Source of the DNA: Pseudeuparius sepicola
Lineage: Eukaryota > Arthropoda > Insecta > Coleoptera > Anthribidae
Length of the DNA stretch: 64,000 nt
Assembly: GCA_963920635.1 (NCBI GenBank)
Contig: OY987308.1
Location: 8,312,225 to 8,376,224 of the forward strand
Direction: 5' to 3'
Shown: piece by piece, positions 2,948 to 38,981 of the stretch
How positions within the stretch are numbered: the stretch's first letter is position 1
Layout: each line of letters starts with the position of its first letter
The notes under the pieces: model-generated
What the model was told of the DNA's origin: nothing
What the model saw: only the letters and a program-made list of their open reading frames with translations
Database searches by the model: none
Translations under genes and position numbers: made by a program

Positions 2948-2953
2948 GTCGGT
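2948..2953. repeat. Left 6-bp target duplication of the palindrome
   Basis: GTCGGT immediately precedes the outer end AGTAGTATAGC of the left arm. The same six bases follow the mirror end at 18364-18369. Inverted arms do not generate a direct repeat in their flanks, so this looks like a target-site duplication. Confidence 0.8.
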
Positions 2954-3008
2954 AGTAGTATAGCTATGCCGGTTCAAGGCCAATTTCCCCATGTATTTCT
3001 TATGGGGG

Positions 3009-3395
3009 CTAAAACGTGGTCAAAACGTGACCAAACTTACCCCCTCCACTCCCAAACCACGCCCCCCAGCCAATCGCGCCGACCGTTGACCCAGCCGTGA
3101 CCTTCGCGCGCTCGACTTTCTCCGACGCGACCGAAGGTGCCCGAGCTCGCCGACCGTTGACCTTCGCTCTCAACCCCGGGGTGCCCGTCATTATCCCTCA
3201 GACCGTTGACCTTCGCTCCAGCCGCGACATGTCACGACTCGCAACTAATAAAAACCCTAAATCATAATTAAGCCATGACGTCCCCCTGTCGACCTTTAGC
3301 CGCGGCCATGCATGGATTTTTGCTACCACCTCTGCCTGCGTATTTTTGCGTCCGCGACGCCGAGACATGTCGAGACTCGCAACTAATAAAAACCT
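3009..3395. other. GC-rich terminal block of left arm
   Basis: In otherwise AT-rich DNA this block is rich in CG dinucleotides, with repeated GACCGTTGACC/CCTTCGC motifs. The phrase GACATGTC-GACTCGCAACTAATAAAAACC appears twice in slightly different form (3226-3256 and 3363-3392). Short open frames across it are low-complexity and I do not believe they code. It could be a regulatory or replication end region; that is inference. The mirror block is 17923-18308. Confidence 0.6.
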
Positions 3396-4126
3396 AACAC
3401 CTATAGAAAAATACCAGCTTGCAATATGTACGTGATGTAATTCCTCGGAAAAAAGTACTTTCTCTTTGTCGGAATAAGCGCCTATGAAACGAGCACGCTG
3501 ATCTCATCGGTACTGGCGATAAAAAATTTGTAGGAAAAGTGTAATAAAGAATAGATATGAGATACATATGAGTGTATACATTTTCTTGACTACATTACCT
3601 AAGGATGTATCAAAAATCTATCTTCCTATATTTAGAGACTGCTTCTCAAAGGAAAGTGGATATTAAATTTGGGGCATAAATTAACCATTTTTAGTTGAGT
3701 TTATAACCATCTAGGTAAGTAAATTTCTTTAATTCCGAGAAAGCCAGGCCTTGTTTTAAATTACTTGACTAAAATATAATAGGTGCAAAGTTCACCAGTT
3801 TTTAAAAATATCCCGTCACACGATTATCAAGTTGAAAGACTAGCTGCAAAATCGGATTTTGTACAACGCGTTTCCTGTTTAAAATTTCACCCAGAAAAAA
3901 AAGGTACTAATTCTCACTTATGCCATGTTCACCGTATGATTTTTATACTATTCCGACTTCGAAAACCCCAAGGTATAAGTGTAGCGTGTGGAAAAAGGGT
4001 TTAAAACCCTTAAACGGTCTATATATGGAATAAAATGAGGGCATGCAACATGTTCTTCAATAATGAAAATTAAAACAATGTTCATTTTTGACTGTCCATT
4101 ATCCAACCAAGAAAAAGCTTATAGCG

Positions 4127-4320
4127 TCTAAGCGACTATAAAAACGACTCTAAAAACGTCTAAACGACTCTAAAAAACGACTAGACGACTCGTAAAAACG
4201 ACTAGACGATTCGAAAAACGACTAGACGATTCGGAAAAAACGACTAAACGACTCTGAAAATGACTAAACGATTCTGGAAAACGACTAGACGATTCTGAAA
4301 AACGACTAGACGACTTGAAA
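4127..4320. repeat. Degenerate CGACTAGACGA tandem array (left arm)
   Basis: About ten imperfect units built on ACGACTAGACGATTCGAAAA, roughly 19-24 bp each, in direct orientation. Variation is mostly in the A-run and in CTAGACG versus CTAAACG. The - strand reading frame through it (repeating Ser-Arg-Phe) is a product of the repeat. The mirror copy is at 16997-17190. Confidence 0.85.
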
Positions 4321-4327
4321 AAGCGAC

Positions 4328-4426
4328 ATACCATTGAATACCATCGAGTACCATGGAATACCATCGAATACCATGAAATACCATCAAAGACCATGGAATA
4401 CTATCGAAAACCACGGAATACCATAA
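4328..4426. repeat. ATACCATCGA/ATACCATGGA minisatellite (left arm)
   Basis: About nine direct copies of an 11-bp unit ATACCATSGAA follow the previous array at once. The open frames MVFDGISWYSMVFHG-like on the - strand arise from this repetition. The mirror copy is at 16891-16989. Confidence 0.85.
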
Positions 4427-4851
4427 ATGGTCTTGGATATCCCTGTGAAAAAATTTGCCTCGGGGAGAGCATAAAAGGAAATTATCCGTGATCGATGCTC
4501 TGTGATCGAAAGATCGCCTTTGATAATACAATCACTCTCAGTTAAAGACATGTTTTTGTCACTTGAGATTGAACCTAGGAGTTATGGTATCCAACACACC
4601 AATGACGGATTAGTCATGGGACAAATACCAGTAACTGTTGAAGATAACGTATTATGTATTGGAGATCAAAATTACCCTTACACCAGGTCTGTCTCAACTG
4701 CTTTTGAAGAACAAACCACAAGGTATTAATGAGAGTGACCTAAAAATATACAAACAATTGTTGATTACTAATTTTCGATAGGTTCAACAAATCAGGTTTT
4801 AAAAGTATTTGTGTTTAGGTGCCTATGGTTTCATCTGGTATATGTTCCATA

Positions 4852-4900
4852 CAGGATTCGAACCTTAGCCCACATTCCAAAGCCAAACACTCGGCATTTA
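4852..4900 (-). other. tRNA-like (Pol III box) sequence, left arm
   Basis: On the - strand the sequence reads TGCCGAGTG (A-box-like), then about 24 bases, then GGTTCGAATCC, a perfect tRNA B box. Spacing and GCCGAGTG suit a class II tRNA such as Leu or Ser, but no acceptor stem or full cloverleaf forms. I take it as a tRNA-derived relic, perhaps a SINE head. The mirror copy is at 16417-16465. Confidence 0.5.
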
Positions 4901-7900
4901 AGTAAAATTCTAGGAAATGCTTGGCAGTGTGGTAATAATCTCGACGCGCTGTTGTAGCAGGGCTCCGCTGGCTCCCGCAGGCCTCGCCGGTCTCTGTAGA
5001 CTCAGCAGGTCCCTTTAATGATGTGTACCGCAGGCTCCGATTAAATTAAAAAAATTACTATTAATACTAAAATACCCGGACAATAACCATCATTCCAACG
5101 CCAAAACACCCAACAGTAGTATTTCTGCGAATGCATCGCAGCCGGGCGCAAGGTGGATGACTCACATCCGCTAGCCGGAACTTGTCAGGACAGGTTGACG
5201 ACCTAAAAACAATTCTCTCTACTTAGATAAAAATAGAATGTCCAATAAGATTTTTTTCACACACTTTTATATATAAGCACAGATAACGTAACCATATAAG
5301 TATATATTACAATATTATAAAATATTTAAGCCCCATATAGTTCGAATTTGAATGGGATATTATGTTACATGGGTAATATATCTCAACACTTCGTACACAA
5401 ACAAAACTCGCTCGTTCTTTACAGTTTTATTACTGTGAATTCGGTACCTACTAAAGCGGCAGACTTGGGATGCCGCAGTAGCAAATACAATATGAAGCGC
5501 AGCTCTGATGTATACTAAAAATGTTATTATCAAACTTGAGACGCACACATATTTAAAAATATAAATACCGCCGGATGAATGCAAGGCCAATTTACGGAAT
5601 ATAGCAAAACAATTAGATTATGGACATGGATATTAATTTCTTTAGGTAAAGGTAATAAACATTTGATACTATCGACAGGAGTCTACGCAAAATAATTGTA
5701 TCAGTATTCAGCAAATAAAAAAGTTATGGGTACCCGTCACCGATGAAAAAGTATACAAAACTGATAAAATGTTCGTGGGATCTTGTATATTAAAATATTT
5801 AATCGCGTATCTAAGTTGTTATTTTATTCATTGCCCATCCCACAAATTTGGATTTTTAGCTCTTGTAATCGCTCGATCACGATTGAAACTACACTCATAA
5901 AATGTTTAAAAAAATGCCCACCCCACGTGATCGCTCGACAAAAACAAAACGTGCAAAGTGGCTACTGCTCGAGGTTTGACCTTTGTCCTTAGGGACACGT
6001 GTGACCCAGTTGATGTAGAATCTAAAAAAAACCCTGTAAATCATACTTCCATAGCATAGAATCTAAAATCCCCCGGTACAGTACGGATGAAAATTTCAAA
6101 CCAGGCATAATCAACATGTACGTTCAAAGTAAAAAAAACTTGTCGGTCAACTGTTTAACCCCGAAATTTTGTTGATTTCTAGGAATAAAAAGAAATACTG
6201 CAATTGTAAGTCCAAAGCTATTTACGCTATCAAATTCGTTTAAAATGCGAATGATAATTTGCCGCATTAAAACCAGGCGTGAAAAATTCAACATACGTCC
6301 CTAAGAAGTTCAACCAATTTTACCCTGGAAAACATTTTTAATGAATAAAATATCGAACATACAACAACCCCCTTCTAAATATAGTATAAATCATGGTTTT
6401 TTTTTTGATAATGTAGAAAGCTAAACTGAAAATTGTTGCTAGAGGTTCTAAAAACCGGGGTGCCAAAAATCAACTATTATTAGAAAATACACTGATGTCA
6501 TAATATAGCCGTCGATGTCACCGTTAGCGTGTCCTATGAAAAAATGCGTTCTGCTTAATAAGGTGTAAAAAAATCCATGACGGGGCTTAGATGAATAAAT
6601 AAAGTTTGATGTATGTGAAAGTATAGACTAAATTTTCGTATAGCCCGCGTGATCGCTCGAGGTGGCGGTATCCTCTGGACTAGAAAATATCATATCGGCT
6701 CAATCTCCAAACATTTTCATTTTGAATTATACGTTTTCATTGATGATAGATCTAGCAAGAAAATTGGACTGGACTCGATATGAGAGACATTAATCTAACT
6801 TTCACTAAACTGCACGTACTACTTAGAGGGTTGTAAGCCGTTTTAATAAAAGCACCAGACTTGCTTAAAATTCATGGCTAAACGTTAACATAATGTCATA
6901 CAAACATGCGGCACGCAAAATATTAAGAATAGATATATGAGCTCAAACATGTTGATCAAAAAATATATTTATTTCTGGCGATTTAGTTTACCAGTTATCA
7001 TTTAAAAACAAAACCTGGTCCCAATATTCAGTGAAAATAATAATTGAAAACTTTGTACCTTATAAACCACCACTAAATAGCAAGTCGGAAATAAGTAAAA
7101 AAATATATATAAATATATTATTTTGATATTATAGCCGAAACTGAATTTATTGGGGTGAAGATGTAAGGAAATATTTTTAGCTAGGAAAAAGTAATGCAAT
7201 TATCATAGGTACTGGTTGCAGAACCCGTTGTCAGTTTTGCAAGGATTTTTGATACAAATATAATTGCTAACGTTTAATTTGTTTACCCCATTTACGAAAA
7301 TGATAACAAAATTGGATCAGACAAGATGTTTTTTCGAAGTATAGTTTTTAAACACAGGGTACCATCACCGGTTTTACGATATAGGTTTAAAAATGCGACG
7401 CAAATACATAAAAAAATACCCTAGAGATAAGAAAACAAAATACAACTCACCAAAAGATTCTTGGTGATGTATAAAAAGAAATCAGGTTACATCTAATGCC
7501 CCAGACAGTAGAATAAACATCCCCGAGCGATGAGATATAACCAAACATCATTTTTCCAACGGCACAGTCATTTTCACGGGAAAAACAACCAGTAACCGTT
7601 CAAATTCCATAGATAGATACTGCCGTAATCCAAAATTTCACTGAACTACGCGTATCTATTATACTGAAGTAGGTACTGATACACTTCCATCTTTCCAAAG
7701 AAAAACAAACACGAAACTCAGACTTTTCATATATTACAACGCCTCGATAGAGTCTTTGTGGCCACGACCGAGAATCTACTGAAGCAAGTGCGACGCATAG
7801 GACGTGAAAAGTGCCGAGTTGGTTTTATTAAACAATGAAACTTATACCTACGTATATATATATAAAATAAATGAGAAATATGCCAGAGATTTGAAACCTA

Positions 7901-8136
7901 ATTGTGTTGCTAGTTTGAGGTCCAAAAAAATATTGGTTTTAATTTTTTAAGGTGAGAAACACATCTAACAGCCAGTTTGGAAATATACAAGGCAAAAAAA
8001 AGTAGTGATGTGGCTGCCCCATTTTATGTTTTATACAGGTTGGATTATTTTAGAATAGTTGTTCAATAGACCGAGACAACATCATAAACGCTTCCCGTTA
8101 GAACAGAATCTGATGAAAAGAAAAATTCCATCTGGG
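4901..8136. other. AT-rich left-arm DNA with sparse motifs
   Basis: No gene is supported. Short open frames such as 5360-5590 and 7002-7199 recur in the other arm only because the arms are copies. I note a GC-richer patch at 4935-5045, a possible hairpin at 5140-5195, and three GATCGCTCGA motifs (5864, 5930, 6651). At 5975-6004 a sequence closely resembles part of the Polinton terminal repeat. Confidence 0.6.
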
Positions 8137-8372
8137 TCAAGCTACTAGATAACCAAAATAAAAAATACTGAACGTTATAAAATTTAAAAAATCATATTTT
8201 CAACGGATTTTTATCCTCTGAAAATGGCGTAAAATTCAGTTTCACTGGGTCAAGCTAGGTGGTAACTATATAACCAAAATAAAAAAATACTGAACGTTAT
8301 AAAATTTAAAAAAATCATATTTTCATGGGATTTTTGTCCTCTGAAAATGACGTAAAATTCAGTTTCAATAAG
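8137..8372. repeat. ~120-bp tandem duplication in left arm
   Basis: Two adjacent copies begin with GGGTCAAGCTA and run through ACCAAAATAAAAAATACTGA to AAATTCAGTTTCA. They differ by a few substitutions and a short insertion. The mirror pair is at about 12945-13180. Confidence 0.85.
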
Positions 8373-9394
8373 TTACTAATAGGTAATAGGGGAAAAATCT
8401 TAAATAGGAATTCTGAGACAACGAGGCTGAGAGTAAATAACATACAAAAATCTTATGCGTTGACTTTGAACTGAATTTAATAATTAGGTTTAATAACGAC
8501 AATTTTCTCGATTATCTAGAATCAAAAATATTGCAAGTGACAATTCACTATTTTCTCGACAATATGTAAAGCCTTATTATTGCGTCGTAAATTAAAAGAT
8601 CCAAAAATATTGGCATCAATTGTTTAGTAAATGTGGTTAAAATATGTCTACTTTATCAACAGTTATTTGTAACAGCTTATTATCTTGGAAGCGTAAACTC
8701 TTTGAATTTTTTAGACAAAAAGTTGTAGTTTAATAATGGTCAGTTGGATTCCTTTTTGAATCATGTTTGCGTATTACCTACAAGGATTTACAACCTCCAA
8801 ACATAGAAATCGCTCATTTTAACCCGATTTAATAAAAATTTCACCAAAAACAATACTTTCAGTCATATAATACACTTCTGATTAATAAAAAAGGCACTAT
8901 AGTAATAATGAGATTTTCAATGGAATTTTTATAGACTGTTTGCCCATTTTGAGAGTCTGTTTGCTAGCTTTTGGGGGTATTCCTTGATATTTTAGACGGA
9001 TAAAAATGAATAACATTGGGTTTCCTAACTAAAATACAAAACGCACTGTTGACTTTACTTCCGTGGATAGTAAGCCTATAATACGTATCGAAAACAGAGA
9101 AATATTCAGGTCAAGAAAAAAGTAGCCTAATTTACAAGTTTGGGAATCAAAAACTACCTTTTGTCTTTTAATTTTGATGAGAAAATACGTCTAATTCGTA
9201 AGTCAAATAAATGGGACATCATGAAAGATATACTAATAATTGAACAAATGCTATCTCAGTTCTATAGGCACAAATTTACTATGGGTAGTAATAGTTTTGG
9301 GATCAAAAGACAAGCTTTTAAATTTGTTAAGAAAATACGTCTAATGAAATTGAAAGTAGTAACTAGATTTTGGTTAACATTTCGTTAACGCGTT

Positions 9395-9983
9395 GATGAA
9401 TGTTTGATGCAAGTGAAAAGTAGATCGAATTTTCCAAAAAACGGTGACTGACCAAACAAGTTATTATAAAAAGTTGCACAGGAGACCGATGTAACCTAGA
9501 AAACGCCTTTCCTTCGAATAGAAAGTGACATAAATAGTTACAAAATGGGACTTAGACGGATATTCGATGCAAGTGAAAAGTAGGCAGAATTTTCGAAAAT
9601 CGGGACGGACCAAAAATTATTAAGTTGATCGGGAGGTTGAGATAACCTATGAAACGCCTTTCATTCGAATAGAATCTGACAAAAAAATCCAAGAAAATTT
9701 TAGACGACTGTTTGCAAGTGAAAAGTATACAGATTTTTTTCGAAAAACGGCGACTGACAAAAAAAAATACTTATTAAAAAATTTTGCTCGGGAGACCGAG
9801 GTAACCTAGAAAACGCCTCTCGTCCGAATATAATCTGAAATAAAATTCCATGATGGGGACTTAGGCGAATGTTTGATGCAAGTGAATAGTATAGACCGAA
9901 TTCCCGAAAAAAACGCCATTCGTTTGAATATAATAAAAAAATCGAATAAGGAACGGGACTTATTAGACGAATATTTGATGCAA
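9395..9983. repeat. Inner minisatellite of left arm
   Basis: About four units of 130-150 bp. Each contains GATGCAAGTGAAAAGTA, then a TTTCGAAAAACGG-type box, a gap, and ACCTAGAAAACGCC(T)TTC followed by CGAATA. The array is cut at 9983, where arm pairing ends. The right side carries the complementary array and extends further. Confidence 0.85.
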
Positions 9984-11332
9984 AACTGACTTAATCCGCC
10001 TCTGATACACCTCTCCCAAATCCAATGGCAATCGGTTCACCAGTCGCTAACCTCTTGGACACCGCGACAATAATGTTAGGTTAGGTTATCTACCTAAAGA
10101 AATGTAAGGTAGCATCTCTGTGACGTCACAGGATTCCACAGTTGAGTTTAATCTGGTGTAAGTTGCGATTGTATCTCCTGGGATTAACGAGTTGTCAACG
10201 CATTAATTTAAGGTAGCATCTTTGTGACGCGTGATCCGGTGTAAGGTTGCGAATGTATCTCCTAAGATTTGGAGGGTCCACACTCGTCAACGCTTCGTTA
10301 ACGAGTTGTCAAAGTTAAGTTATCGCGTTGTTAGCACCTCGTTCGTTAACATGTTGTCAATGCTCGTTAACGCCTTGTTAACTATATTTTTACTTTACAT
10401 TATATACGTATTTGACCTGTCATATACTTACTCATGACACATTGGCTAACTAGGGATTCCATAAACAAAGGGTATTATTAATTAGAATAAATTGTGATAA
10501 ATTTCCTAAAATGTGAGCAGACAATGGACGTTTTATTTTTCTCACGTCATTAAGTTTCCAATAATTTGTAAAAATCTCATTGAATCATATGGAAAACACA
10601 CAAATTTCGACTTATTGAGGGGCATTTTCTCCCTTCTGTTTAGGGTTATAGATCACTCCAATCGTCCTTGCATTCTTATTCATCTATGTCTAAATTTTTT
10701 TTTGTCGCATTTTGTTTGAATGAAAGGCGTTTCCTAGGTACCACGGCCCCGAACAACTTTTCTAATAATTTTTAGTCAGCCGCCGTTTTTCGAAAAAAAA
10801 AATCTGTATGCTTTTCACTTGCAAACATTCGTCTAAGTCACGTCTTGGAATTTTTTTTTGTTACATTCTATTCGAATGAAAGGTGTTTCCTAGGTTACCT
10901 CGGCCTCCCAATCAACTTTTCTAATAATTTTTTGTTTCTTTTTCACTTGCAAACATTCGTCTAAGTCACGTCTCGGATTTTTTTGTCATATTCTATTCGA
11001 TTGAAAGGCGTTTCCTAGGTTAAACCTTCCGATCAACTTTTCTAATAATTTTTTTGTTTTTTTTTTTTCACTTGCAAACATTCGTCTAAGTCACGTCTCG
11101 GATTTTTTTTTGTCATATTCTATTCGAATGAAAGGCGTTTCCTAGGTTAAACCTTCCGGTCAACTTTTCTAATAATTTTTTTGTTTTTTTTTTCACTTGC
11201 AAACATTCGTCTAAGTCACGTCAATTTTTTTTTTTTCAGATTTTGTTCAAACAAAATATCAATGTTATCTGGGGGCCTTCCGACTAACTATTTTTATCAG
11301 TCACTCGAAAAAATCTATCTATACTTTTCCAC
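9984..11332. other. Unpaired centre of the palindrome
   Basis: The left half (9984-10715) is unrelated to the arms. It contains two copies of an AAGGTAGCATCT...GTATCTCCT unit (10108-10184 and 10211-10268), a CTGTGACGTCACAG perfect palindrome near 10118, and a cluster of GTTAACG motifs (10290-10380). The right half (10716-11332) continues the minisatellite of the right arm with four to five more units. No credible gene is present. Confidence 0.7.
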
Positions 11333-14300
11333 TTGCATCAAATATTCGTCTAATAAGTCCCGTTCCTTATTCGATTTTTTATTATATTCAAACGAATGGC
11401 GTTTTTTTCGGGAATTCGGTCTATACTATTCACTTGCATCAAACATTCGCCTAAGTCCCCATCATGGAATTTTTATTTCAGATTATATTCGGACGAGAGG
11501 CGTTTTCTAGGTTACCTCGGTCTCCCGAGCAAAATTTTCTAATAAGTATATTTTCTTTGTCAGTCGCCGGTTTTCGAAAAAAATCTGTATACTTTTCACT
11601 TGCAAACAGTCGTCCAAAATTTTCTTGGATTTTTTTTGTCAGATTCTATTCGAATGAAAGGCGTTTCATAGGTTATCTCAACCTCCCGATCAACTTAATA
11701 ATTTTTGGTCCGTCCCGATTTTCAAAAATTCTGCCTACTTTTCACTTGCATCGAATATCCGTCTAAGTCCCATTTTGTAACTATTTATGTCACTTTCTAT
11801 TCGAAGGAAAGGCGTTTTCTAGGTTACATCGGTCCCCTGAGCAACTTTTTATAATAACTTGTTTGGTCAGTCACCGTTTTTTGGAAAATTCGATCTACTT
11901 TTCACTTGCATCAAACATTCATCAACGCGTTAACGAAATGTTAACCAAAATCTAGTTACTACTTTCAATTTCATTAGACGTATTTTCTTAACAAATTTAA
12001 AAGCTTGTCTTTTGATCCCAAAACTATTACTACCCATAGTACCTTTGTGCCTATAGAACTGAGATAGCATTTGTTCAATTATTAGTATATCTTTCATGAT
12101 GTCCCATTTATTTGACTTACGAATTAGACGTATTTTCTCATCAAAATTAAAAGACAAAAGGTAGTTTTTGATTCCCAAACTTGTAAATTAGGCTACTTTT
12201 TTCTTGACCTGAATATTTCTCTGTTTTCGATACGTATTATAGGCTTACTATCCACGGAAGTAAAGTCAACAGTGCGTTTTGTATTTTAGTTAGGAAACCC
12301 AATGTTATTCATTTTTATCCGTCTAAAATATCAAGGAATACCCCCAAAAGCTAGCAAACAGACTCTCAAAATGGGCAAACAGTCTATAAAAATTCCATTG
12401 AAAATCTCATTATTACTATAGTGCCTTTTTTATTAATCAGAAGTGTATTATATGACTGAAAGTATTGTTTTTGGTGAAATTTTTATTAAATCGGGTTAAA
12501 ATGAGCGATTTCTATGTTTGGAGGTTGTAAATCCTTGTAGGTAATACGCAAACATGATTCAAAAAGGAATCCAACTGACCATTATTAAACTACAACTTTT
12601 TGTCTAAAAAATTCAAAGAGTTTACGCTTCCAAGATAATAAGCTGTTACAAATAACTGTTGATAAAGTAGACATATTTTAACCACATTTACTAAACAATT
12701 GATGCCAATATTTTTGGATCTTTTAATTTACGACGCAATAATAAGGCTTTACATATTGTCGAGAAAATAGTGAATTGTCACTTGCAATATTTTTGATTCT
12801 AGATAATCGAGAAAATTGTCGTTATTAAACCTAATTATTAAATTCAGTTCAAAGTCAACGCATAAGATTTTTGTATGTTATTTACTCTCAGCCTCGTTGT
12901 CTCAGAATTCCTATTTAAGATTTTTCCCCTATTACCTATTAGTAACTTATTGAAACTGAATTTTACGTCATTTTCAGAGGACAAAAATCCCATGAAAATA
13001 TGATTTTTTTAAATTTTATAACGTTCAGTATTTTTTTATTTTGGTTATATAGTTACCACCTAGCTTGACCCAGTGAAACTGAATTTTACGCCATTTTCAG
13101 AGGATAAAAATCCGTTGAAAATATGATTTTTTAAATTTTATAACGTTCAGTATTTTTTATTTTGGTTATCTAGTAGCTTGACCCAGATGGAATTTTTCTT
13201 TTCATCAGATTCTGTTCTAACGGGAAGCGTTTATGATGTTGTCTCGGTCTATTGAACAACTATTCTAAAATAATCCAACCTGTATAAAACATAAAATGGG
13301 GCAGCCACATCACTACTTTTTTTTGCCTTGTATATTTCCAAACTGGCTGTTAGATGTGTTTCTCACCTTAAAAAATTAAAACCAATATTTTTTTGGACCT
13401 CAAACTAGCAACACAATTAGGTTTCAAATCTCTGGCATATTTCTCATTTATTTTATATATATATACGTAGGTATAAGTTTCATTGTTTAATAAAACCAAC
13501 TCGGCACTTTTCACGTCCTATGCGTCGCACTTGCTTCAGTAGATTCTCGGTCGTGGCCACAAAGACTCTATCGAGGCGTTGTAATATATGAAAAGTCTGA
13601 GTTTCGTGTTTGTTTTTCTTTGGAAAGATGGAAGTGTATCAGTACCTACTTCAGTATAATAGATACGCGTAGTTCAGTGAAATTTTGGATTACGGCAGTA
13701 TCTATCTATGGAATTTGAACGGTTACTGGTTGTTTTTCCCGTGAAAATGACTGTGCCGTTGGAAAAATGATGTTTGGTTATATCTCATCGCTCGGGGATG
13801 TTTATTCTACTGTCTGGGGCATTAGATGTAACCTGATTTCTTTTTATACATCACCAAGAATCTTTTGGTGAGTTGTATTTTGTTTTCTTATCTCTAGGGT
13901 ATTTTTTTATGTATTTGCGTCGCATTTTTAAACCTATATCGTAAAACCGGTGATGGTACCCTGTGTTTAAAAACTATACTTCGAAAAAACATCTTGTCTG
14001 ATCCAATTTTGTTATCATTTTCGTAAATGGGGTAAACAAATTAAACGTTAGCAATTATATTTGTATCAAAAATCCTTGCAAAACTGACAACGGGTTCTGC
14101 AACCAGTACCTATGATAATTGCATTACTTTTTCCTAGCTAAAAATATTTCCTTACATCTTCACCCCAATAAATTCAGTTTCGGCTATAATATCAAAATAA
14201 TATATTTATATATATTTTTTTACTTATTTCCGACTTGCTATTTAGTGGTGGTTTATAAGGTACAAAGTTTTCAATTATTATTTTCACTGAATATTGGGAC

Positions 14301-17300
14301 CAGGTTTTGTTTTTAAATGATAACTGGTAAACTAAATCGCCAGAAATAAATATATTTTTTGATCAACATGTTTGAGCTCATATATCTATTCTTAATATTT
14401 TGCGTGCCGCATGTTTGTATGACATTATGTTAACGTTTAGCCATGAATTTTAAGCAAGTCTGGTGCTTTTATTAAAACGGCTTACAACCCTCTAAGTAGT
14501 ACGTGCAGTTTAGTGAAAGTTAGATTAATGTCTCTCATATCGAGTCCAGTCCAATTTTCTTGCTAGATCTATCATCAATGAAAACGTATAATTCAAAATG
14601 AAAATGTTTGGAGATTGAGCCGATATGATATTTTCTAGTCCAGAGGATACCGCCACCTCGAGCGATCACGCGGGCTATACGAAAATTTAGTCTATACTTT
14701 CACATACATCAAACTTTATTTATTCATCTAAGCCCCGTCATGGATTTTTTTACACCTTATTAAGCAGAACGCATTTTTTCATAGGACACGCTAACGGTGA
14801 CATCGACGGCTATATTATGACATCAGTGTATTTTCTAATAATAGTTGATTTTTGGCACCCCGGTTTTTAGAACCTCTAGCAACAATTTTCAGTTTAGCTT
14901 TCTACATTATCAAAAAAAAACCATGATTTATACTATATTTAGAAGGGGGTTGTTGTATGTTCGATATTTTATTCATTAAAAATGTTTTCCAGGGTAAAAT
15001 TGGTTGAACTTCTTAGGGACGTATGTTGAATTTTTCACGCCTGGTTTTAATGCGGCAAATTATCATTCGCATTTTAAACGAATTTGATAGCGTAAATAGC
15101 TTTGGACTTACAATTGCAGTATTTCTTTTTATTCCTAGAAATCAACAAAATTTCGGGGTTAAACAGTTGACCGACAAGTTTTTTTTACTTTGAACGTACA
15201 TGTTGATTATGCCTGGTTTGAAATTTTCATCCGTACTGTACCGGGGGATTTTAGATTCTATGCTATGGAAGTATGATTTACAGGGTTTTTTTTAGATTCT
15301 ACATCAACTGGGTCACACGTGTCCCTAAGGACAAAGGTCAAACCTCGAGCAGTAGCCACTTTGCACGTTTTGTTTTTGTCGAGCGATCACGTGGGGTGGG
15401 CATTTTTTTAAACATTTTATGAGTGTAGTTTCAATCGTGATCGAGCGATTACAAGAGCTAAAAATCCAAATTTGTGGGATGGGCAATGAATAAAATAACA
15501 ACTTAGATACGCGATTAAATATTTTAATATACAAGATCCCACGAACATTTTATCAGTTTTGTATACTTTTTCATCGGTGACGGGTACCCATAACTTTTTT
15601 ATTTGCTGAATACTGATACAATTATTTTGCGTAGACTCCTGTCGATAGTATCAAATGTTTATTACCTTTACCTAAAGAAATTAATATCCATGTCCATAAT
15701 CTAATTGTTTTGCTATATTCCGTAAATTGGCCTTGCATTCATCCGGCGGTATTTATATTTTTAAATATGTGTGCGTCTCAAGTTTGATAATAACATTTTT
15801 AGTATACATCAGAGCTGCGCTTCATATTGTATTTGCTACTGCGGCATCCCAAGTCTGCCGCTTTAGTAGGTACCGAATTCACAGTAATAAAACTGTAAAG
15901 AACGAGCGAGTTTTGTTTGTGTACGAAGTGTTGAGATATATTACCCATGTAACATAATATCCCATTCAAATTCGAACTATATGGGGCTTAAATATTTTAT
16001 AATATTGTAATATATACTTATATGGTTACGTTATCTGTGCTTATATATAAAAGTGTGTGAAAAAAATCTTATTGGACATTCTATTTTTATCTAAGTAGAG
16101 AGAATTGTTTTTAGGTCGTCAACCTGTCCTGACAAGTTCCGGCTAGCGGATGTGAGTCATCCACCTTGCGCCCGGCTGCGATGCATTCGCAGAAATACTA
16201 CTGTTGGGTGTTTTGGCGTTGGAATGATGGTTATTGTCCGGGTATTTTAGTATTAATAGTAATTTTTTTAATTTAATCGGAGCCTGCGGTACACATCATT
16301 AAAGGGACCTGCTGAGTCTACAGAGACCGGCGAGGCCTGCGGGAGCCAGCGGAGCCCTGCTACAACAGCGCGTCGAGATTATTACCACACTGCCAAGCAT
16401 TTCCTAGAATTTTACTTAAATGCCGAGTGTTTGGCTTTGGAATGTGGGCTAAGGTTCGAATCCTGTATGGAACATATACCAGATGAAACCATAGGCACCT
16501 AAACACAAATACTTTTAAAACCTGATTTGTTGAACCTATCGAAAATTAGTAATCAACAATTGTTTGTATATTTTTAGGTCACTCTCATTAATACCTTGTG
16601 GTTTGTTCTTCAAAAGCAGTTGAGACAGACCTGGTGTAAGGGTAATTTTGATCTCCAATACATAATACGTTATCTTCAACAGTTACTGGTATTTGTCCCA
16701 TGACTAATCCGTCATTGGTGTGTTGGATACCATAACTCCTAGGTTCAATCTCAAGTGACAAAAACATGTCTTTAACTGAGAGTGATTGTATTATCAAAGG
16801 CGATCTTTCGATCACAGAGCATCGATCACGGATAATTTCCTTTTATGCTCTCCCCGAGGCAAATTTTTTCACAGGGATATCCAAGACCATTTATGGTATT
16901 CCGTGGTTTTCGATAGTATTCCATGGTCTTTGATGGTATTTCATGGTATTCGATGGTATTCCATGGTACTCGATGGTATTCAATGGTATGTCGCTTTTTC
17001 AAGTCGTCTAGTCGTTTTTCAGAATCGTCTAGTCGTTTTCCAGAATCGTTTAGTCGTTTTCAGAGTCGTTTAGTCGTTTTTTCCGAATCGTCTAGTCGTT
17101 TTTCGAATCGTCTAGTCGTTTTTACGAGTCGTCTAGTCGTTTTTTAGAGTCGTTTAGACGTTTTTAGAGTCGTTTTTATAGTCGCTTAGACGCTATAAGC
17201 TTTTTCTTGGTTGGATAATGGACAGTCAAAAATGAACATTGTTTTAATTTTCATTATTGAAGAACATGTTGCATGCCCTCATTTTATTCCATATATAGAC

Positions 17301-18363
17301 CGTTTAAGGGTTTTAAACCCTTTTTCCACACGCTACACTTATACCTTGGGGTTTTCGAAGTCGGAATAGTATAAAAATCATACGGTGAACATGGCATAAG
17401 TGAGAATTAGTACCTTTTTTTTCTGGGTGAAATTTTAAACAGGAAACGCGTTGTACAAAATCCGATTTTGCAGCTAGTCTTTCAACTTGATAATCGTGTG
17501 ACGGGATATTTTTAAAAACTGGTGAACTTTGCACCTATTATATTTTAGTCAAGTAATTTAAAACAAGGCCTGGCTTTCTCGGAATTAAAGAAATTTACTT
17601 ACCTAGATGGTTATAAACTCAACTAAAAATGGTTAATTTATGCCCCAAATTTAATATCCACTTTCCTTTGAGAAGCAGTCTCTAAATATAGGAAGATAGA
17701 TTTTTGATACATCCTTAGGTAATGTAGTCAAGAAAATGTATACACTCATATGTATCTCATATCTATTCTTTATTACACTTTTCCTACAAATTTTTTATCG
17801 CCAGTACCGATGAGATCGGCGTGCTCGTTTCATAGGCGCTTATTCCGACAAAGAGAAAGTACTTTTTTCCGAGGAATTACATCACGTACATATTGCAAGC
17901 TGGTATTTTTCTATAGGTGTTAGGTTTTTATTAGTTGCGAGTCTCGACATGTCTTGGCGTCGCGGACGCAAAAATACGCAGGCAGAGGTGGTAGCAAAAA
18001 TCCATGCATGGCCGCGGCTAAAGGTCGACAGGGGGACGTCATGGCTTAATTATGATTTAGGGTTTTTATTAGTTGCGAGTCGTGACATGTCGCGGCTGGA
18101 GCGAAGGTCAACGGTCTGAGGGATAATGACGGGCACCCCGGGGTTGAGAGCGAAGGTCAACGGTCGGCGAGCTCGGGCACCTTCGGTCGCGTCGGAGAAA
18201 GTCGAGCGCGCGAAGGTCACGGCTGGGTCAACGGTCGGCGCGATTGGCTGGGGGGCGTGGTTTGGGAGTGGAGGGGGTAAGTTTGGTCACGTTTTGACCA
18301 CGTTTTAGCCCCCAGAAGAAATACATGGGGAAATTGGCCTTGAACCGGCATAGCTATACTACT
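11333..18363 (-). repeat. Right arm of giant inverted repeat
   Basis: Reverse-complement copy of 2954-9983, of nearly the same length. It contains mirror copies of every sub-feature of the left arm: minisatellite 11333-11922, 120-bp duplication 12945-13180, tRNA-like sequence 16417-16465, short arrays 16891-17190 and GC block 17923-18308. Confidence 0.9.
16417..16465 (+). other. tRNA-like (Pol III box) sequence, right arm
   Basis: Mirror copy of 4852-4900, here on the + strand: TGCCGAGTG followed by the B box GGTTCGAATCC. Same interpretation and doubts. Confidence 0.5.
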
Positions 18364-18369
18364 GTCGGT
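18364..18369. repeat. Right 6-bp target duplication of the palindrome
   Basis: GTCGGT directly follows the right outer end TATACTACT and matches 2948-2953 in direct orientation. Confidence 0.8.
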
Positions 18370-18935: not shown

Positions 18936-19307
18936 GCGTATTTAAAACACACTATCCTTAAGGCGGACGGCAGTTGTTCGCCTGGAGAACAATATGAACG
19001 TGGATAAGGAAGCTTCTCGTAATTGGGTTAGGCTGAAGTAGATGTTATGATGTTATTTTATATGTACTAGGGCGCCACTTCGTTTGTTAGCTTCAAACTA
19101 AGAAAAAGCATAAATTAAATATAGTTTACTCAGGTGCAGATATAAATAAACAGCCACTCTAGAGCTATAGACTTTTGCACAAATACTCGCTTTATTGCTG
19201 ACAGGTTATGTCGTTATACATGAGAACAGAATGCCTGCGTATGATATAACATTAGATAGATATCTTACTTGTAGTCATACTAACTCTTAACCACTGTAGT
19301 ACTATGG
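18936..19307 (-). repeat. 3' LTR of gypsy element
   Basis: About 372 bp matching 52298-52900 in direct orientation, from GCGTATTTAAAACACACTAT to CTGTAGTACTATGG. Several substitutions separate the two LTRs (for example TGTTCGCC context, GAAGCTTC versus GAAGATTC), consistent with an old insertion. It lacks the ~236-bp insertion present in the other LTR. Confidence 0.9.
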
Positions 19308-24563: not shown

Positions 24564-25025
24564 TTAGAAAGGCAGTAGATAATTTAGTAACTTCATGCTT
24601 AGTGGTATTAGCTTGTTGTAGCTTAGGCAATTCTTTATCCCAGTTTTGGTGTTCGTCAATAAAACGACGAATTTTTTGTTAGTGCGCTCAACGAAATTGC
24701 ACTGGGTGGAATAGACAGCGTTAAACCAAATTTTCTGAACGTTATATTTGTTACACAAATTACGTAATTCATGACCAGTAAGGTTTGGTGCGTTGTCACA
24801 AATGACAAACTGTGGTACTCCAAAGACAAGGAAAACCTTATTTTCTAAGAAATCTATGATATTTTTAGACTTAGCATTGCGTAAGGGGTGGACGAGAGTA
24901 TATTTAGAAAACCAGTCACCAACAACTAAAAGCCAACTGTAGTCACTTTTCGACCGAGCCATAAGATCTAAAGCGATAATTTGCCATGGAAACTTAGCTT
25001 TTTTTCTTTGCCCAGGAAACCCATT
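24564..25025 (-). pseudogene. Gypsy integrase catalytic core, split by Polinton
   Basis: The - strand frame shows the DDE core of a retroelement integrase: PWQIIALDLMARS (first Asp), VICDNAPNLTG (second Asp) and NFVERTNKKF (catalytic Glu), with VVGDWFSKYT between. Its N-terminal side stops exactly at the Polinton insertion point. The preceding residues, including GAQKKPITARMG, are found on the other side of the Polinton at 48539-48590, in the same frame. The first 60 nt of the open frame past 25026 belong to the Polinton terminal repeat and are not integrase. The core ends in a stop after LLNYLLPF. Confidence 0.92.
25020..25025. repeat. Left target duplication of Polinton
   Basis: CCCATT directly before the element end AGTAGATATAC. 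The identical hexamer follows the other end at 48533-48538. Joining the flanks through one copy restores a continuous gypsy integrase frame, which confirms the boundary. Confidence 0.95.
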
Positions 25026-25634
25026 AGTAGATATACTAAGAGAGTTCCAACTCACGACCCCCATGTTAATCTCCATAAGGCCAGAAATGCGTGCATTTTG
25101 GCTACGTCACAGCCGAGGTCACGTGACGTCACAGCTTGACCTCAATTGACCTTTGGGACACGTGTGATTCTTGGAAGCCGGCCCCCACCCCTGACCCCAC
25201 TCTGTACGGCCCCCACTCCTGACCCCACCGCCGGTGGAGGGGTGACGCCTATATGTTTGATGGAGCGCAGTTCCTGCACCATTCTTAAGCCACTTGCAGT
25301 AAAAACAATTTCTAAGCCACAAAATGCAGTCGTTCGTGGAAAGTTTGAACAAGAATTTTGTCTTGAAGATATTCGAGAGTTTGCAGAATTTGAAAGTGGG
25401 AGAAAAATTTCAAATAAAGATGGTGGACAAGGTGAACACGCAGTACGGAGAAGAAATCTTCGTAGAGTGCGACGAATTTAAAACGGTGCTACCGCAACGC
25501 TACACCGCTCAGTTTACATCCGAGATAATTGGCAAGACAAATGGTGAAATTGGTGCTGGCAAACGGTATTTTCTGCGAAGTTTGGGGCCGATCGGAAGGA
25601 CAACAAATATTGAATTTATTGTAGAACCTTGAAT
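25026..25634 (+). repeat. Left terminal inverted repeat of Polinton
   Basis: About 609 bp, complementary to 47930-48532 with small differences. It contains a CACGTGACGTCAC cluster near 25120-25132 (an E-box joined to a CRE-like palindrome), a C-rich tract, and the complete coding region of a 102-codon gene. Confidence 0.95.
25324..25632 (+). CDS. Unassigned protein encoded in left TIR (102 aa)
   Basis: An open frame of 102 codons lying wholly inside the terminal inverted repeat, so the element carries it twice. The protein begins MQSFVESLNK and has a charged middle with VGEKFQIKMVDKVNTQYG. It ends in YFLRSLGPIGRTTNIEFIVE, a conserved-looking C-terminus also readable in the right copy. I recognise it as a type of small protein seen near Polinton ends in insects but know no function; no catalytic motif or membrane segment is visible. 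A polyadenylation-like TTTTAATAAACATTT lies about 140 bp downstream. The right copy is frameshifted (47930-48239), so only this copy is intact. Confidence 0.7.
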   Translation: MQSFVESLNKNFVLKIFESLQNLKVGEKFQIKMVDKVNTQYGEEIFVECDEFKTVLPQRYTAQFTSEIIGKTNGEIGAGKRYFLRSLGPIGRTTNIEFIVEP

Positions 25635-26906: not shown

Positions 26907-26936
26907 GTCAGGGTATGTCCGAGAAAAAAAACACTA

Positions 26937-28156
26937 GGTTTTAGGCTAAAAAAGCGTGGTTAAAACTGTTTCCAACATTCAATAGACTTTAGCACATTAA
27001 TTTTGTTAAGAAAAAACAGTACTTACTGTTTTCTTGAGAGAAAGCAGCACTCTGTTGCTAGCCATGATGGAACACTTTTGTAAACACTTACTATAACACG
27101 GAAGTCTGTGAACTAAATGCTCTCTCTGATGTATGACACAATTTATAGGAACGTCAGCAAAAAAAAGGCCTCGTCAGCAAAAATTTAGAAAATGTCCTAA
27201 AAGTAACATCTTCACCAAAGCAAAAAAGTTGAAGTTTGGTTAGGAACAGGTCCCAGAAGTGGTACGCTATCAGCACAAAATCCTAATTTACATGCTTTCA
27301 AAACAACCGTTCAGGCACGCAAATCTACATGCCAGCTGATTCCGTGACAATGCCTCACTACTTAGATGACCTCGTATCCAATGTAGTAAAAAAATAGTAC
27401 GAAAGTGCAAGCTATGCATTCTCGGCCAGACGCCCCGGCTCCTATACCAGGCACGCTTCCGTTCGGCCGAGATCCCGGCGTTCTGTCCACTCAGCAGTTA
27501 GAACAAAGACCCACAGATTTCCGCCGAAAGGCCCAAATATTTCCTAAACGAAAAATCTGGGAAAATCGGCATATAGCGCAAACGATTTAGGTACCCCCTT
27601 GGGGGGGTTACGAAGTTACCAGAGGGGGCTCGGGGGAGGGGGCCTGTCCCCAATTGCGGCCCGTGCCAGGCCGAAGGCCGAAGGCCTGGCCGGAACACAA
27701 TTGGGGTTGGACAAACACGTCAAGATATTTGCGCATGCGCAGTAGCACAGAATCGATACCTATGAAAATTCCAAAAATTTTCTAATTTTTTTTAATGAAT
27801 TTTTAAAAGGTCCTAAGTCGATTGCAGGGTGAAATTTTGAGAAAAAAGTGACAGAAAGGCCTCAAATAAGCCACTAACTTTGACAAGACATAACGTAGAA
27901 GACTCCGTTGCAAGTGGAAATATACAGAAAACGACACTGACCAAAAAAGTTAGAAAAAAATTCAGATAATATAAAAAAAAATCCAATACGAGTAAATAAA
28001 AATTTAAAATTGACACACTGTGGTCTAGGGTCGACTGTCAATCAGACAGGAAAATTGTTGTTTACCAATTTTTACCAATGTTTTTTTTTTCAAATTTTGC
28101 TTTCATTTTCCCAATTTTTTTCCGATTTTGAATTTTGAAATTATTGTAAGTGAAGA
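26937..28156. other. Long non-coding leader of unit 1
   Basis: About 1.2 kb without a supported gene. It includes a GC-rich stretch (27585-27706) with a large hairpin, and T/A-rich DNA from 27770 to 28145. At 28148-28194, 47-54 bp present here are missing in unit 2. Confidence 0.6.
27648..27706. other. Large imperfect hairpin
   Basis: CCCCAATTGCGG...GCCAGGCC pairs with GGCCTGGC...CAATTGGGG around the loop GAAGGCCGAA. The stem is about 24 bp with a small internal bulge. It is conserved at 38475-38533 in unit 2. It lies about 550 bp upstream of the TATA box of the 190-aa gene. Confidence 0.75.
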
Positions 28157-28207
28157 ATGTCAAATATGCTTACAAGGCAAAAAAACCTTAGTCGGCAAAT
28201 AGTGGCC

Positions 28208-28244
28208 TATAAAAGGAGGCGGGGTTTTCACTCCTTCGTCAGTT
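28208..28244 (+). promoter_or_regulatory. TATA/Inr promoter of 190-aa gene
   Basis: TATAAAAGG at 28208-28216 and an initiator TCAGTT at 28239-28244 place the +1 A 33 bp downstream of the TATA start. The first ATG after it is at 28263. This is a textbook Pol II core promoter, preserved in unit 2 at 38982-39018. Confidence 0.75.
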
Positions 28245-28262
28245 CTTTCCAAGTGCTTCAAG

Positions 28263-28835
28263 ATGCAAGAAATGGAGACCGAGCTGGTGCCCTGGTGCAA
28301 GTGTTCCCTCCCCACTGTAACAGAAGAAATGTTGGACGTCTACGACTGGGGGCTTCAATGTGACTGCAACAAAGACTACAAGCCTGCAGAACAACAGCCC
28401 CCCAAAGAAGCAGCACAGGTGATGTGGCATGGAGTGCCATGGCACATCTGTGGTGAAGAGTTTGGTCTCCCAGAATATCCTCAGGACACCAAACAACCCG
28501 CAGAGCAATGGCAAGGCAACCAACAACCAACAGAACAATGCCAAGACAGCCAGCAGCTCCCAGCAGAACACGGTAAACAACCGCCCTCAGAAGAACGGAA
28601 GGGCAGTCAATCTCCCGCAGAAAACACCTGGCCTCCCCTGGTAGAAGAATGGGACGATGTGGGTATTTACACACCTGACCTAGAAGAGAGAAATGTGCTG
28701 CGGCCGTATCCGCCTGGGCTTAGCGAGGCCGCCCGGAGGGTCTTTCGCCAGGCAGAAAGGCTGCGGTTGCAGCGCCTGTCTAGTGAGGGATTAGAGGAAC
28801 GGGCACGTGTTTTTCAAGAAAATTGGGGCTTATAG
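28263..28835 (+). CDS. Unassigned GC-rich, Gln-rich acidic protein (190 aa)
   Basis: The start at 28263 is the first ATG after a TATA/Inr promoter. The N-terminus has paired Cys motifs (WCKCS at 12-15, LQCDC near 32-36) and further Cys/Trp (MWHGVPWHICGEEFG). The middle (about 75-115) is Gln/Pro-rich low complexity. The C-terminus is acidic then basic, with ERNVLRPYPPGLSEAARRVF and a helical Leu/Arg stretch. Codon use is strikingly CAG/CTG/GCC-rich beside AT-rich neighbours. Both copies are fully open and differ by about two residues. I do not recognise the family. Some adintoviruses encode small regulatory proteins at a similar place; this has no perfect LXCXE motif. An AATAAA lies at 28885. 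Recent capture or strong selection on base composition are both possible. Confidence 0.7.
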   Translation: MQEMETELVPWCKCSLPTVTEEMLDVYDWGLQCDCNKDYKPAEQQPPKEAAQVMWHGVPWHICGEEFGLPEYPQDTKQPAEQWQGNQQPTEQCQDSQQLPAEHGKQPPSEERKGSQSPAENTWPPLVEEWDDVGIYTPDLEERNVLRPYPPGLSEAARRVFRQAERLRLQRLSSEGLEERARVFQENWGL

Positions 28836-29033
28836 TATACCACCTATTACAGTATAAAATATTATATTTTAAAATATTATATCAAATAAAATCATTAAAA
28901 ATTGCCTGCCTTTTCATTGTGAATCTTTTCCTAACGTGTGATAATCAACAACAAAACAGTGACCTCTCCTGAACATAATAAAAGAAAAAATAATGAAAGC
29001 GCTATTTGAATGTAAGAAATCGAATTGAAAATT

Positions 29034-29062
29034 GCCCGGGCGGTCCCCGGCGCCGCCCGGGC
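29034..29062. other. Perfect GC hairpin
   Basis: GCCCGGGCGG pairs perfectly with CCGCCCGGGC around a 9-base loop. It lies in AT-rich DNA between the 190-aa gene and the polymerase promoter. A second copy is at 39808-39836. It is not followed by a T-run, so a terminator role is unlikely. A structural or protein-binding role is inference. Confidence 0.8.
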
Positions 29063-29378
29063 GATGGTTAAATTGTCTCATAATTACGTCATGTGCATGA
29101 AAGTTGAATATCTTGGAAACTAATGACTCTACAAAAAAATGTTTCAAATAAAAGTTGTAGCATATCAAAAGGGCTAATCAAATGTTTATAAAAGAAAATT
29201 CAGGTCATATGACAATTAAGTTGGTTTTTCAACGACATCCTGGTGTTTTTATTTGATAAAAGCATTTAGCTTCTTTCACGGAATATATTTCATTAGAAAA
29301 ATTTTTTTCTAAATTGTAGTTTCAGGACATGAATTTTTGCTTCGTTGCAAAATTAATTTTTTAGCGGTTGCGTGTTGG

Positions 29379-29412
29379 TATATAAAGAGCGCACATTTTC
29401 TCCGCACAGCAG
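29379..29412 (+). promoter_or_regulatory. TATA promoter of polymerase gene
   Basis: TATATAAAG at 29379-29387, with a CACAGCAG initiator-like stretch about 30 bp on. The first ATG is at 29444. The unit 2 copy is at 40153-40186. Confidence 0.6.
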
Positions 29413-29443
29413 AGCTGCGTACACACCGAACCACATCGGCATC

Positions 29444-32400
29444 ATGGCTGCAGCAATTGCAGAGGTAAGTGATAATATTGTTAACGTTTGTGAGAGGGCT
29501 TTTCGCTTGATAACAAGCGGTATGGATATGAGAACGCGAGAGCGCTGGCATAAACTGATTAACAAAAATATTAGGGTCGTTTATGGCGTCATAAAAAGCA
29601 TGTCGATACAATCCTGGTACGATGACAAAACTACAAACAAATTTAGGACATTTAAAAAGATTCAGAGCTTACTTAAAAAATATGAAACACGCGGGGTGTG
29701 GAGTAAAAGCGAGTGGACGAGGTTGGGTCAAATGGGAAGACACTAAGTCCGCATTCAAAAGTAGAATTCGTTCGGGAGCCATTATAAATCTTAAGCATAA
29801 AGACATAGTGGATTTCTTGAATGACGCTTTTCGCCTTCTAAAACCAGGCTTGTCTAGAATCGTAAAAGAATACAACATAATAAAGGTTAACACCGTTTTC
29901 TGTGGAGAATTTATAAAAAAATCGGGAGATGAAGAAGTCCAAATGGGGAATGGCGGTGGGTCGTACGTGAAATTACCGGATGAGATTTTAAAGAAAAGAG
30001 CTTGCGTTAACGTTAGAAACGATGATGACGCGTGCTTCATGTGAGCTGTCATTTCGGCTCTACCCCGTAGATCGTACCCCCACTACGCGGAGGTTTTGAA
30101 CCTAGACGGGTTGGAGGACTTTCCCATAACGCTTCCTAAAATAGAAAGGTTCGAAAAATTAAATGAAATTTCCGTAAACGTATACGCCCTAGAGTTAGTA
30201 TGCGAAAATTCGCGTAAATTTTGTACTGGCCCGGTGCGATTGACTAAAAAGAAGATGGATAGACACGTGAACTTGCTACTCATTCAGGATCAATATTTCC
30301 TAAAAATTAATGACTACGAGACCACTCCCGCGGAAGATGTCGAAATGCCAGCTATAAAATATAATTTTTGTTGGATTAAAAATTTTGTCGCGTCTAATTT
30401 CTACGCAAATGAATAAACACAACGGCAAAATGTTCATATGTGACAGATGTCTGAATTATTTTCAAACCCAGGAAAAATTAGACAACCACACTGTTTACTG
30501 TGAAGAATTCAATAATTGTCAGGTGTCGTTCCCCAAAGAAAAATTTGTCAAGTTTAAAAATTACGTCTATAAAGAACGCACCCCTTTTGTTATATATTCA
30601 GATTTTGAGTCCATGTTAAAACCTTATACCGATTCGGAGGCCATGTCGCAGACTTCCAAGTACCAAAAACACGAGGCGTTCAGTGCCGCTTTTTATTTTA
30701 AATGCTCCTACGATGACTCTTTGTCTTTTTTCAAAAGCTATCGGGGGTCCGATTGTATGTCTTGGTATGCGGATCAAATGGAGGAAATCGCAAAATTCGT
30801 TGCGTCGAAATTAACAACCGTGGAACCGATGGATCAAAATATAAGTTTGAAAAATGCCACGGCAAATTGTCACATTTGTGAAAAATCGTTCACTCCCGAC
30901 GATATCATAGTCCGTGATCATTGCCATTTGTCTTCTAGGTTTCGTGGGTACGCCCATCAGGCATGCAATCTAAATTATCGAAACTCGTTCGTGATTCCAG
31001 TGGTATTTCATAATTTCAGCGGCTACGACAGTCATTTCATTATCAGGGACCTTGCCAAGCGCAATCATATCTCCCTTCTTCCCATCAATAAAGAAAAATA
31101 TATAAGTTTTACGATTTTCGATAATAAAACCAGTGTAAAATTTCGTTTTATTGATTCCCTAAGATTCATGGGATTTTCTCTAGAGACACTAGCCTCCTCT
31201 CTTAAAAGCAAGGATTTCGTTAACACTAAAAAATAATTTGGTGACATCCCTTCGGATCAGTTGACCCTATTACCTAGAAAAGGCGTTTTTTGTTATGACT
31301 ACATCGACAATTTAGAGAAATTACAAGAGACTTCGCTTCCAACTATCGATAAATTTTATAACAAACTAAATGACACCAATATCAATGAAAATGAATACGC
31401 TCGCGCTCAACTGGTTTGGGAAAAATTCAATATAGGCACGATCGGAATACTCGGATCTGTACCTCAAAACTGATATAATGTTGCTAAGTGACGTGTTTGA
31501 GACGTTCAGAAAGTCGTGTCACGATAATTACGGTCTAGATCCCGCTTGATATTATACCATGCCTGGTTATACCTTCGATTGTATGTTAAAATTCACCGGT
31601 TGTAAATTAGAAACGTTTCAAGATATCGATATTTTGCTATTTTTCGAGAGAGCTGTCAGAGGCGGCTTGAGCCAATGTTCTAAGCGCTTCGCGCAAGCCA
31701 ATAATAAATACATGAAAGGACACAATCCGGACGATCCCTCTAAATATATTCTGTATCTAGACGTAAATAACTTGTACGGTTGGGCGATGTGTGAGTGTTT
31801 GCCTCAAGGCGGTTTTCAATGGGTAGACGACATTGACAGTATTGACGTTACTAAAATTCCCAACGATGCTAAAGAAGGGTATATTTTAGAGGTTGCTTAG
31901 AGTATCCTGACGGGTTGCACGATTTGCATAAAGATCTCCCTTTTGCTGCCGAACACCGAATACCGCCAGAATCGAAATTACCTAAACTTATGACTAACAA
32001 AGAAAAATACGTGATACATTACAGGGCGCTCAAACAGGCCCTGAACCACGGTCTGGTCTTGAAAAAGACCCACAGAATTTTAAAATTTAAACAGTCCGGT
32101 TTTTTGGCGCCATACATCAATTAAGAACGAAGGCCAAGTTTGATTTCGAAAAAACCATTATTAAACTTATGAACAACGCTATCTATGGTAAAACTATGGA
32201 AATTATTAGGAAACAGAATCGTGAAGTTAGTGAATAAAACTTTAACAAGCCCCTGTATGTTGGAATGGCAATTCTAGACATATCCAAAACCTGCATCTAC
32301 GAATTCCACTATGATTTTATGCTACAAAACTATTCATCCTCCGACTGCCAATTACTATACACTGATACGGACAGTCTTATCTACGAAATTTGTTGCGATG

Positions 32401-32820: not shown

Positions 32821-32868
32821 AATGTAAGAATGTGGGTATGTAAATAAAAAACACTGTTTTTAAAATGT

Positions 32869-33387: not shown

Positions 33388-33399
33388 GCTCCGCCACTA

Positions 33400-34341: not shown

Positions 34342-34379
34342 ATCGAAATTTGTGGCCCGCTTTCTGCGGCGCGACTAAG

Positions 34380-38980: not shown

Positions 38981-38981
38981 C

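Follow-up and report, generated by a model that had tools for sequence, protein, structure and literature searches.

What is the near-perfect palindrome of 15,410 bp that lies beside a Polinton in the genome of the anthribid beetle Pseudeuparius sepicola, and how have its two arms come to be almost identical? It is found in a stretch of 64,000 nucleotides (GenBank assembly GCA_963920635.1, contig OY987308.1, positions 8,312,225 to 8,376,224 of the forward strand), the whole of which is referred to here as the window. We propose, with a probability of roughly 0.85, that the palindrome belongs to a family of non-coding foldback elements of the Polinton/Maverick type, present in many copies, mobilised by Polintons and transmitted as whole palindromes.

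Structure of the palindrome in the window

The element proper occupies positions 2954-18363. Its left arm (2954-9983, forward strand), a terminal inverted repeat (TIR) of 7030 bp, starts with AGTAGTATAGC, while the right arm (11333-18363, reverse strand), a TIR of 7031 bp, ends with GCTATACTACT. The arms match with 99.744% inverted identity over 7033 columns, with 13 mismatches and 5 gaps, about an axis at ~10658. This bears out a preliminary description, made from the letters alone, of ~7.03-kb arms paired about position 10659. The hexamer GTCGGT, reported in the same description, is indeed directly repeated on the forward strand outside both ends, at 2948-2953 and 18364-18369. These two hexamers are target-site duplications (TSDs) and not part of the element, to which the span 2948-18369 had originally been assigned. 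GTCGGT is not self-complementary, and the switch from inverted to direct symmetry falls exactly at the element ends. An assembly fold-back error is not expected to behave in this way, and the window palindrome is confirmed as real.

A scan of the whole window for inverted 10-mers gave 14,944 pairs, just two of which are flanked by exact, non-palindromic 6-bp repeats, those made up of one or two letter types being disregarded: the palindrome and the Polinton at 25026-48532. With 9-mers 11 of 31,810 pairs pass, and only these two begin with AG. Likewise, among the AGTAGT (n = 12) and ACTACT (n = 20) sites of the window, only the two ends of the palindrome pair with matching 6-bp flanks. The left arm is GC-rich in its outer ~500 bp and consists of degenerate satellite in its inner ~600 bp. 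The 18 differences between the arms are unevenly spread (Fisher p = 2e-8): the outer 6446 bp has 7, and the inner 584 bp, which is the satellite part, has 11, of which 4 are one-base length changes.

The first 11 bases of the palindrome, AGTAGTATAGC, recur at 58013 beside an array of 44/88/107-bp satellite (58013-59381). This site was rejected as a further element end, the remainder being mismatched (23/66 and 21/66) and no ACTACT partner with a duplication being present.

No coding capacity was found in the window copy, in agreement with the preliminary description and as judged from its predicted reading frames. The longest stop-free frame in the longer (right) half is 119 aa. Under a Markov model the mean was 116, and a frame as long arose in 35.5% of 200 simulations. 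None of ten open reading frames (ORFs) reached the Pfam cut-off, and the best tblastn match between the ORFs of the neighbouring Polinton and the window copy had E=0.001 over 30 aa. The PolB, integrase, ATPase and capsid proteins by which an autonomous Polinton is recognised were thus not found in the window copy. An Rfam search gave no matches at gathering scores within the window.

A family of copies with their own duplications

The genome (769 Mb in 16 contigs; the window lies at C10:8312225-8376224) was searched with the outer 1247 bp of the element. At least 78 family matches were obtained (40 of 1476 candidates scored), a lower bound on copy number, and many of them are arranged as inverted pairs 13-34 kb apart. 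We fetched the ends of 13 inverted pairs besides that of the window, together with 12 unpaired ends, giving 38 ends. An exact 6-bp duplication, different in each case, flanks 11 of the 13 pairs. The ends start with AGTAGT (11), AGTAGA (25, as in the window Polinton) or TGTAG (2), so that AGTAG is present in 36 of 38, and CCATGTATTTCTTAT occurs in all 38 at a constant distance from the end. Further copies with the same outer ends and their own duplications are what the preliminary description had suggested looking for. Because the family occupies many loci, each with its own duplication, it has been mobile in the past.

The whole palindrome is the transmitted unit

Ten pairs, all from the 11 with duplications, were fetched whole, as two halves each. 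Their main inverted blocks measure 3.1 to ~8.4 kb at 96.9-99.9% identity. In five of the nine mappable copies (C8_13.55, C5_50.81, C2_86.14, C3_18.57 and C3_49.24), which belong to two subfamilies, the same asymmetric core of ~44 bp is reached from both sides. Satellite lengths differ among these five, with ~0.4 kb of satellite absent on one side of C8_13.55. The centre is shortened by different amounts in the remaining four, one of which, C5_32.57, also contains a Tc1/mariner-like ORF. Copy C3_25.52 gave no central match and is interrupted by a retrovirus-like long terminal repeat (LTR) element; this LTR element (C3:25523800-25543174) carries, according to Pfam, reverse transcriptase, RNase H, integrase and a baculovirus-F-like envelope ORF. 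Since the five copies that reach the same core measure 16.1-16.9 kb, the complete element is ~16.7 kb long with arms of ~8.3 kb. That five mappable copies from two subfamilies have the same centre shows that the whole palindrome is the transmitted unit.

Comparison with these five copies also explains the centre of the window copy. Its left arm is followed by a 39-bp piece of the same core (9984-10022, forward strand) and then by an inner part of the right arm (10023-11332, reverse strand; half-unit 8341-7031) that has no counterpart in the left half. In the five other copies this inner part is present on both sides, with varying satellite lengths; in the window it includes 125-bp satellite units at 10812-11222. 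The two halves of the window copy therefore measure 8380 bp (with the core piece) and 7030 bp, ~1.3 kb being missing beside the centre on one side. At the junction of left arm and core (9983/9984), CAA is common to both, as a microhomology deletion would leave, and the loss of one side of the centre by a deletion of this type is most likely. What had appeared to be a central spacer, a 1349-bp 'loop', is thus the core piece together with the inner right arm left unpaired by the one-sided loss.

The arms evolve in concert

The outer ~5.6 kb of the arms was compared in 11 copies including the window copy (3.1 kb for one of them). Divergence between the arms of a single copy is 0.04-0.39%, with single-arm differences numbering 2 to 22 per ~5.6 kb in ten copies and 4 per 3.1 kb in the other. 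In five older copies each arm has its partner as sister (support 0.92-1.0), the two lying 0.04-0.21% apart but 0.65-1.1% from the nearest other copy, and 98 of the 104 copy-specific states present in both arms are found in these five. Of the 98 differences between arms, 82 are private to one copy and 16 have both states elsewhere. The arms of a copy evolve in concert, a pattern suggestive of a hairpin intermediate in which they are copied or repaired. Copies C2_86.14 and C3_18.57 have 3 arm differences in common, the left arm of one corresponding to the right arm of the other, and their core is swapped likewise, indicating that a whole palindrome was transmitted together with its differences.

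Evidence for mobilisation by Polintons

Like Polintons and Mavericks, the palindrome has a 6-bp duplication and AG..CT termini, with the end motif AGTAGT//ACTACT in the window copy. (AGT)2//(ACT)2 is given as the commonest end motif of vertebrate Mavericks in a passage of PMC8097293. Aligned without gaps from base 1, the end of the palindrome and that of the window Polinton agree at 34 of 66 positions (35 for the right end), with CCCCATGT at equal offset. When the first five bases were left out and any length was allowed, equally high scores were reached by 19 of 40,937 control positions for the Polinton end and by 15 of 40,937 for the palindrome end. The likeness beyond AGTAG, matched by ~4e-4 of the controls, is supportive of a link to Polintons but not conclusive. 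No relatives were found in IMG/VR with the palindrome end; a 20-base end pattern recovered two near-identical contigs there, one with densely packed ORFs, which we judged to be chance matches.

A second line of evidence is a foldback of 16,179 bp nested inside a 31.7-kb copy on contig C6. It is flanked by the TSD TATAAC, has AGTAGT at its left end and AATACT at its right end, and consists of inverted arms of ~5.6 kb about a 4.9-kb middle. Its left end is homologous to the TIR of the window Polinton, with an identity of 79% at the tip (101 aligned sites) and of 64-71% further in; the right end is similar over the first ~600 columns (64-84%) before the similarity drops. The arms of the same foldback hold positions 4292-6183 of the palindrome family at 86-96%. 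This genome thus has a foldback whose ends are recognisably those of a Polinton and part of whose inner sequence is also found in the palindromes. Its middle (L069:1782-6702) contains a 182-aa ORF resembling GNAT acetyltransferases (Pfam E=3.5e-7), perhaps captured cargo, and a 189-aa ORF with no Pfam matches.

The suggestion in the preliminary description of a non-autonomous element mobilised by a Polinton integrase is therefore well supported by the shared ends, by the separate duplications of 11 of 13 pairs and by a nested relative with ends like Polinton TIRs. Because no Polinton gene was found in the family, mobilisation in trans, and with it the enzyme, is what we infer from these features.

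A proposed mechanism

The integrase of a Polinton would most likely recognise the AGTAG... ends and insert the linear element with a 6-bp staggered cut, in keeping with the ends and duplications observed. Copying, too, would most likely be carried out by the protein-primed polymerase of a Polinton because ends of the (AGT)2 type suit protein-primed starts. Folded back on itself, a single strand of the element can form a hairpin of 8.3 kb; mismatch repair or self-primed copying within this hairpin may re-equalise the arms. The arms would then diverge mainly after insertion, as LTRs do.

The complete element (~16.7 kb) is similar in length to the window Polinton once a 7.2-kb internal duplication is subtracted (~16.3 kb). 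This would fit packaging in a capsid, but a single match of sizes is weak evidence. We consider it rather unlikely that the family is a gene-less, heritable palindromic satellite of Polinton viruses, replicated by their polymerase, packaged in their capsids at virus genome length, with arms kept alike through the hairpin, and perhaps limiting Polintons in the germ line as a defective-interfering element.

Alternative explanations

Several observations weigh against the explanation of a transmitted foldback mobilised by Polintons. Two of the 13 pairs (C10:7963636-7997540 and C8:6978882-6992006) have no matching 6-bp duplication; these pairs may be recombinants or the ends of two different copies. 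The similarity between the palindrome and Polinton ends is weak and fades past ~66 bp, and one unrelated position of 127,868 in the window also scores 35/66. The family was without Polinton genes in the tests run (ten ORFs of other copies and tblastx on eight family stretches): every Pfam match in these ORFs falls in nested elements, and the tblastx matches were confined to the ends and their vicinity, apart from a few that were very short. In the young group of six copies only two have sister arms (support 0.88 and 0.93), two have non-sister arms, and C2_86.14 and C3_18.57 pair crosswise; divergence in this group is too low to resolve it. Judging from the crosswise sharing in these two sequences, the arms are not fully reset in each cycle, and their whole arm blocks, satellites included, are less identical than the outer part (96.9% in C2_86.14 and 98.1% in C3_18.57). 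Finally, chromosomal gene conversion could homogenise the arms as well, and is a serious rival.

Under gene conversion the arms would be kept alike on the chromosome and not by replication of the element, an account that is compatible with mobilisation by Polintons. Palindromes elsewhere undergo gene conversion, and the copy-specific states present in both arms are consistent with it. Single-arm differences nevertheless persist, so conversion in place is not keeping the arms identical now. We regard gene conversion as a possible, though not a probable, source of the likeness of the arms.

The palindrome might instead be a foldback of a cut-and-paste superfamily (Mutator, P/Galileo or IS3EU) with no link to Polintons. 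Mutator and P superfamily elements, the latter including Galileo, have duplications longer than 6 bp, whereas those of the palindrome are 6 bp. The long, repetitive arms with tandem units do resemble foldbacks such as Tetris, and most foldbacks apparently belong to Mutator according to PMC4079207, where the duplications of Tetris are given as 8-10 bp. Galileo, a member of the P superfamily, is among the exceptions. IS3EU/GingerRoot elements have 6-bp TSDs, but their termini, as described in a section of PMC10045372, are mostly TA..TA or occasionally TG..CA, against AG..CT here. The cut-and-paste superfamilies were rejected on duplication length and termini, and the nested foldback, with ends homologous to Polinton TIRs, also argues against them; we consider an origin of this kind improbable.

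The preliminary description had offered as an alternative the snap-back (self-primed) dimer of one end of a linear, protein-primed genome, integrated once. Such a dimer would have near-perfect arms and could have one side longer than the other, as in the window copy. It would not account for many copies with different TSDs, for the core common to five of nine mappable copies in two subfamilies, or for arm differences passed through transposition in two copies, and as a one-off event it is very improbable; a snap-back origin of the founder palindrome is possible. Near-perfect palindromes can arise as a long-read artefact, but an assembly or library fold-back has a negligible probability here: the flanks differ, symmetry switches exactly where the 6-bp direct repeats begin, and many loci, each with a TSD of its own, have the same structure.

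The neighbouring Polinton

The Polinton at 25026-48532 measures 23,507 bp, or ~16.3 kb without its internal duplication, and represents a candidate helper type. Its TIRs (25026-25633 and 47930-48532) are ~0.6 kb long and 90.5% identical, and it is flanked by the TSD CCCATT at 25020-25025 and 48533-48538. Pfam identifies a PolB fragment, an rve integrase, a Pox_A32-type ATPase, a double jelly-roll capsid domain and a BIR-RING protein, and by this predicted content it is a genuine Polinton. The integrase ORF (33403-34374, reverse strand; Pfam rve) has the residues D47, D115 and E149, which are kept in 13 of 13 aligned relatives. The relatives of the Polinton proteins that name an organism (among the best 120 of 2234, and 85 of 85) come exclusively from what we take, on general knowledge, to be beetles. 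No relatives of the Polinton integrase and capsid were found in IMG/VR.

The internal tandem duplication (26936-44931) repeats 26936-31790 as 37764-42563 (98.7%) and 35402-37766 as 42557-44931 (99.5%); its second copy is ~3.6 kb shorter and is without the integrase. It looks younger than the divergence of the TIRs, and might stem from the assembler having duplicated a haplotype. The capsid ORF (44976-46007) aligns to its best relatives over ~63% of its length, and the gene may be broken. An rve-domain ORF at 24567-25106, probably of a retroelement, spans the left end of the Polinton. A candidate Polinton end at 24487 (reverse strand, 31/66) was rejected, as no partner end was found. Elsewhere in the window, a 354-bp dispersed repeat is present at 18936-19289 and 52298-52651 (94.9% identical).

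Comparison with known systems

The palindrome resembles Polintons and Mavericks in its AG..CT ends, including (AGT)2//(ACT)2, its 6-bp duplications, its terminal inverted repeats and its total size, intact vertebrate Mavericks being 12.7-24.6 kb long with TIRs of 46-1447 bp in the portion of PMC8097293 concerned with them. Unlike these elements, it has no genes that we found and consists almost entirely of inverted repeat, with arms of ~8.3 kb that are far longer than those vertebrate TIRs. In being non-coding, with very long inverted repeats, inner tandem repeats and a small middle, it has the structure of foldbacks such as Tetris, Galileo, Drosophila FB and Tm1. It differs from Tetris in its shorter, 6-bp duplications, its AG..CT ends and its link to Polintons, and its arms are nearly five times as long (those of Tetris reach 1,735 bp in a passage of PMC4079207).

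The mostly private differences between the arms also recall LTRs, the two copies of which are alike at insertion. Since few arm differences extend beyond a single copy, the arms might serve, like LTRs, to date individual insertions. In protein-primed viruses such as adenovirus, snap-back or defective genomes are palindromic, helper-dependent linear DNAs with viral ends; unlike these, the palindrome is heritable, multi-copy and chromosomal, with no viral coding sequence found.

In phrase searches of open-access literature, with subscription papers and Repbase outside their scope, no paper dealing with non-autonomous Polintons or Mavericks came up. Some non-autonomous Polintons are listed in Repbase, and we claim no priority. 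The assignment of the palindrome family to a foldback-type, non-autonomous Polinton is well supported, and a link between foldbacks and Polintons would be a new combination. With such a family, genome data can be used to test whether other DNA is mobilised in trans by Polintons, and whether the replication of Polintons passes through a self-annealing single strand.

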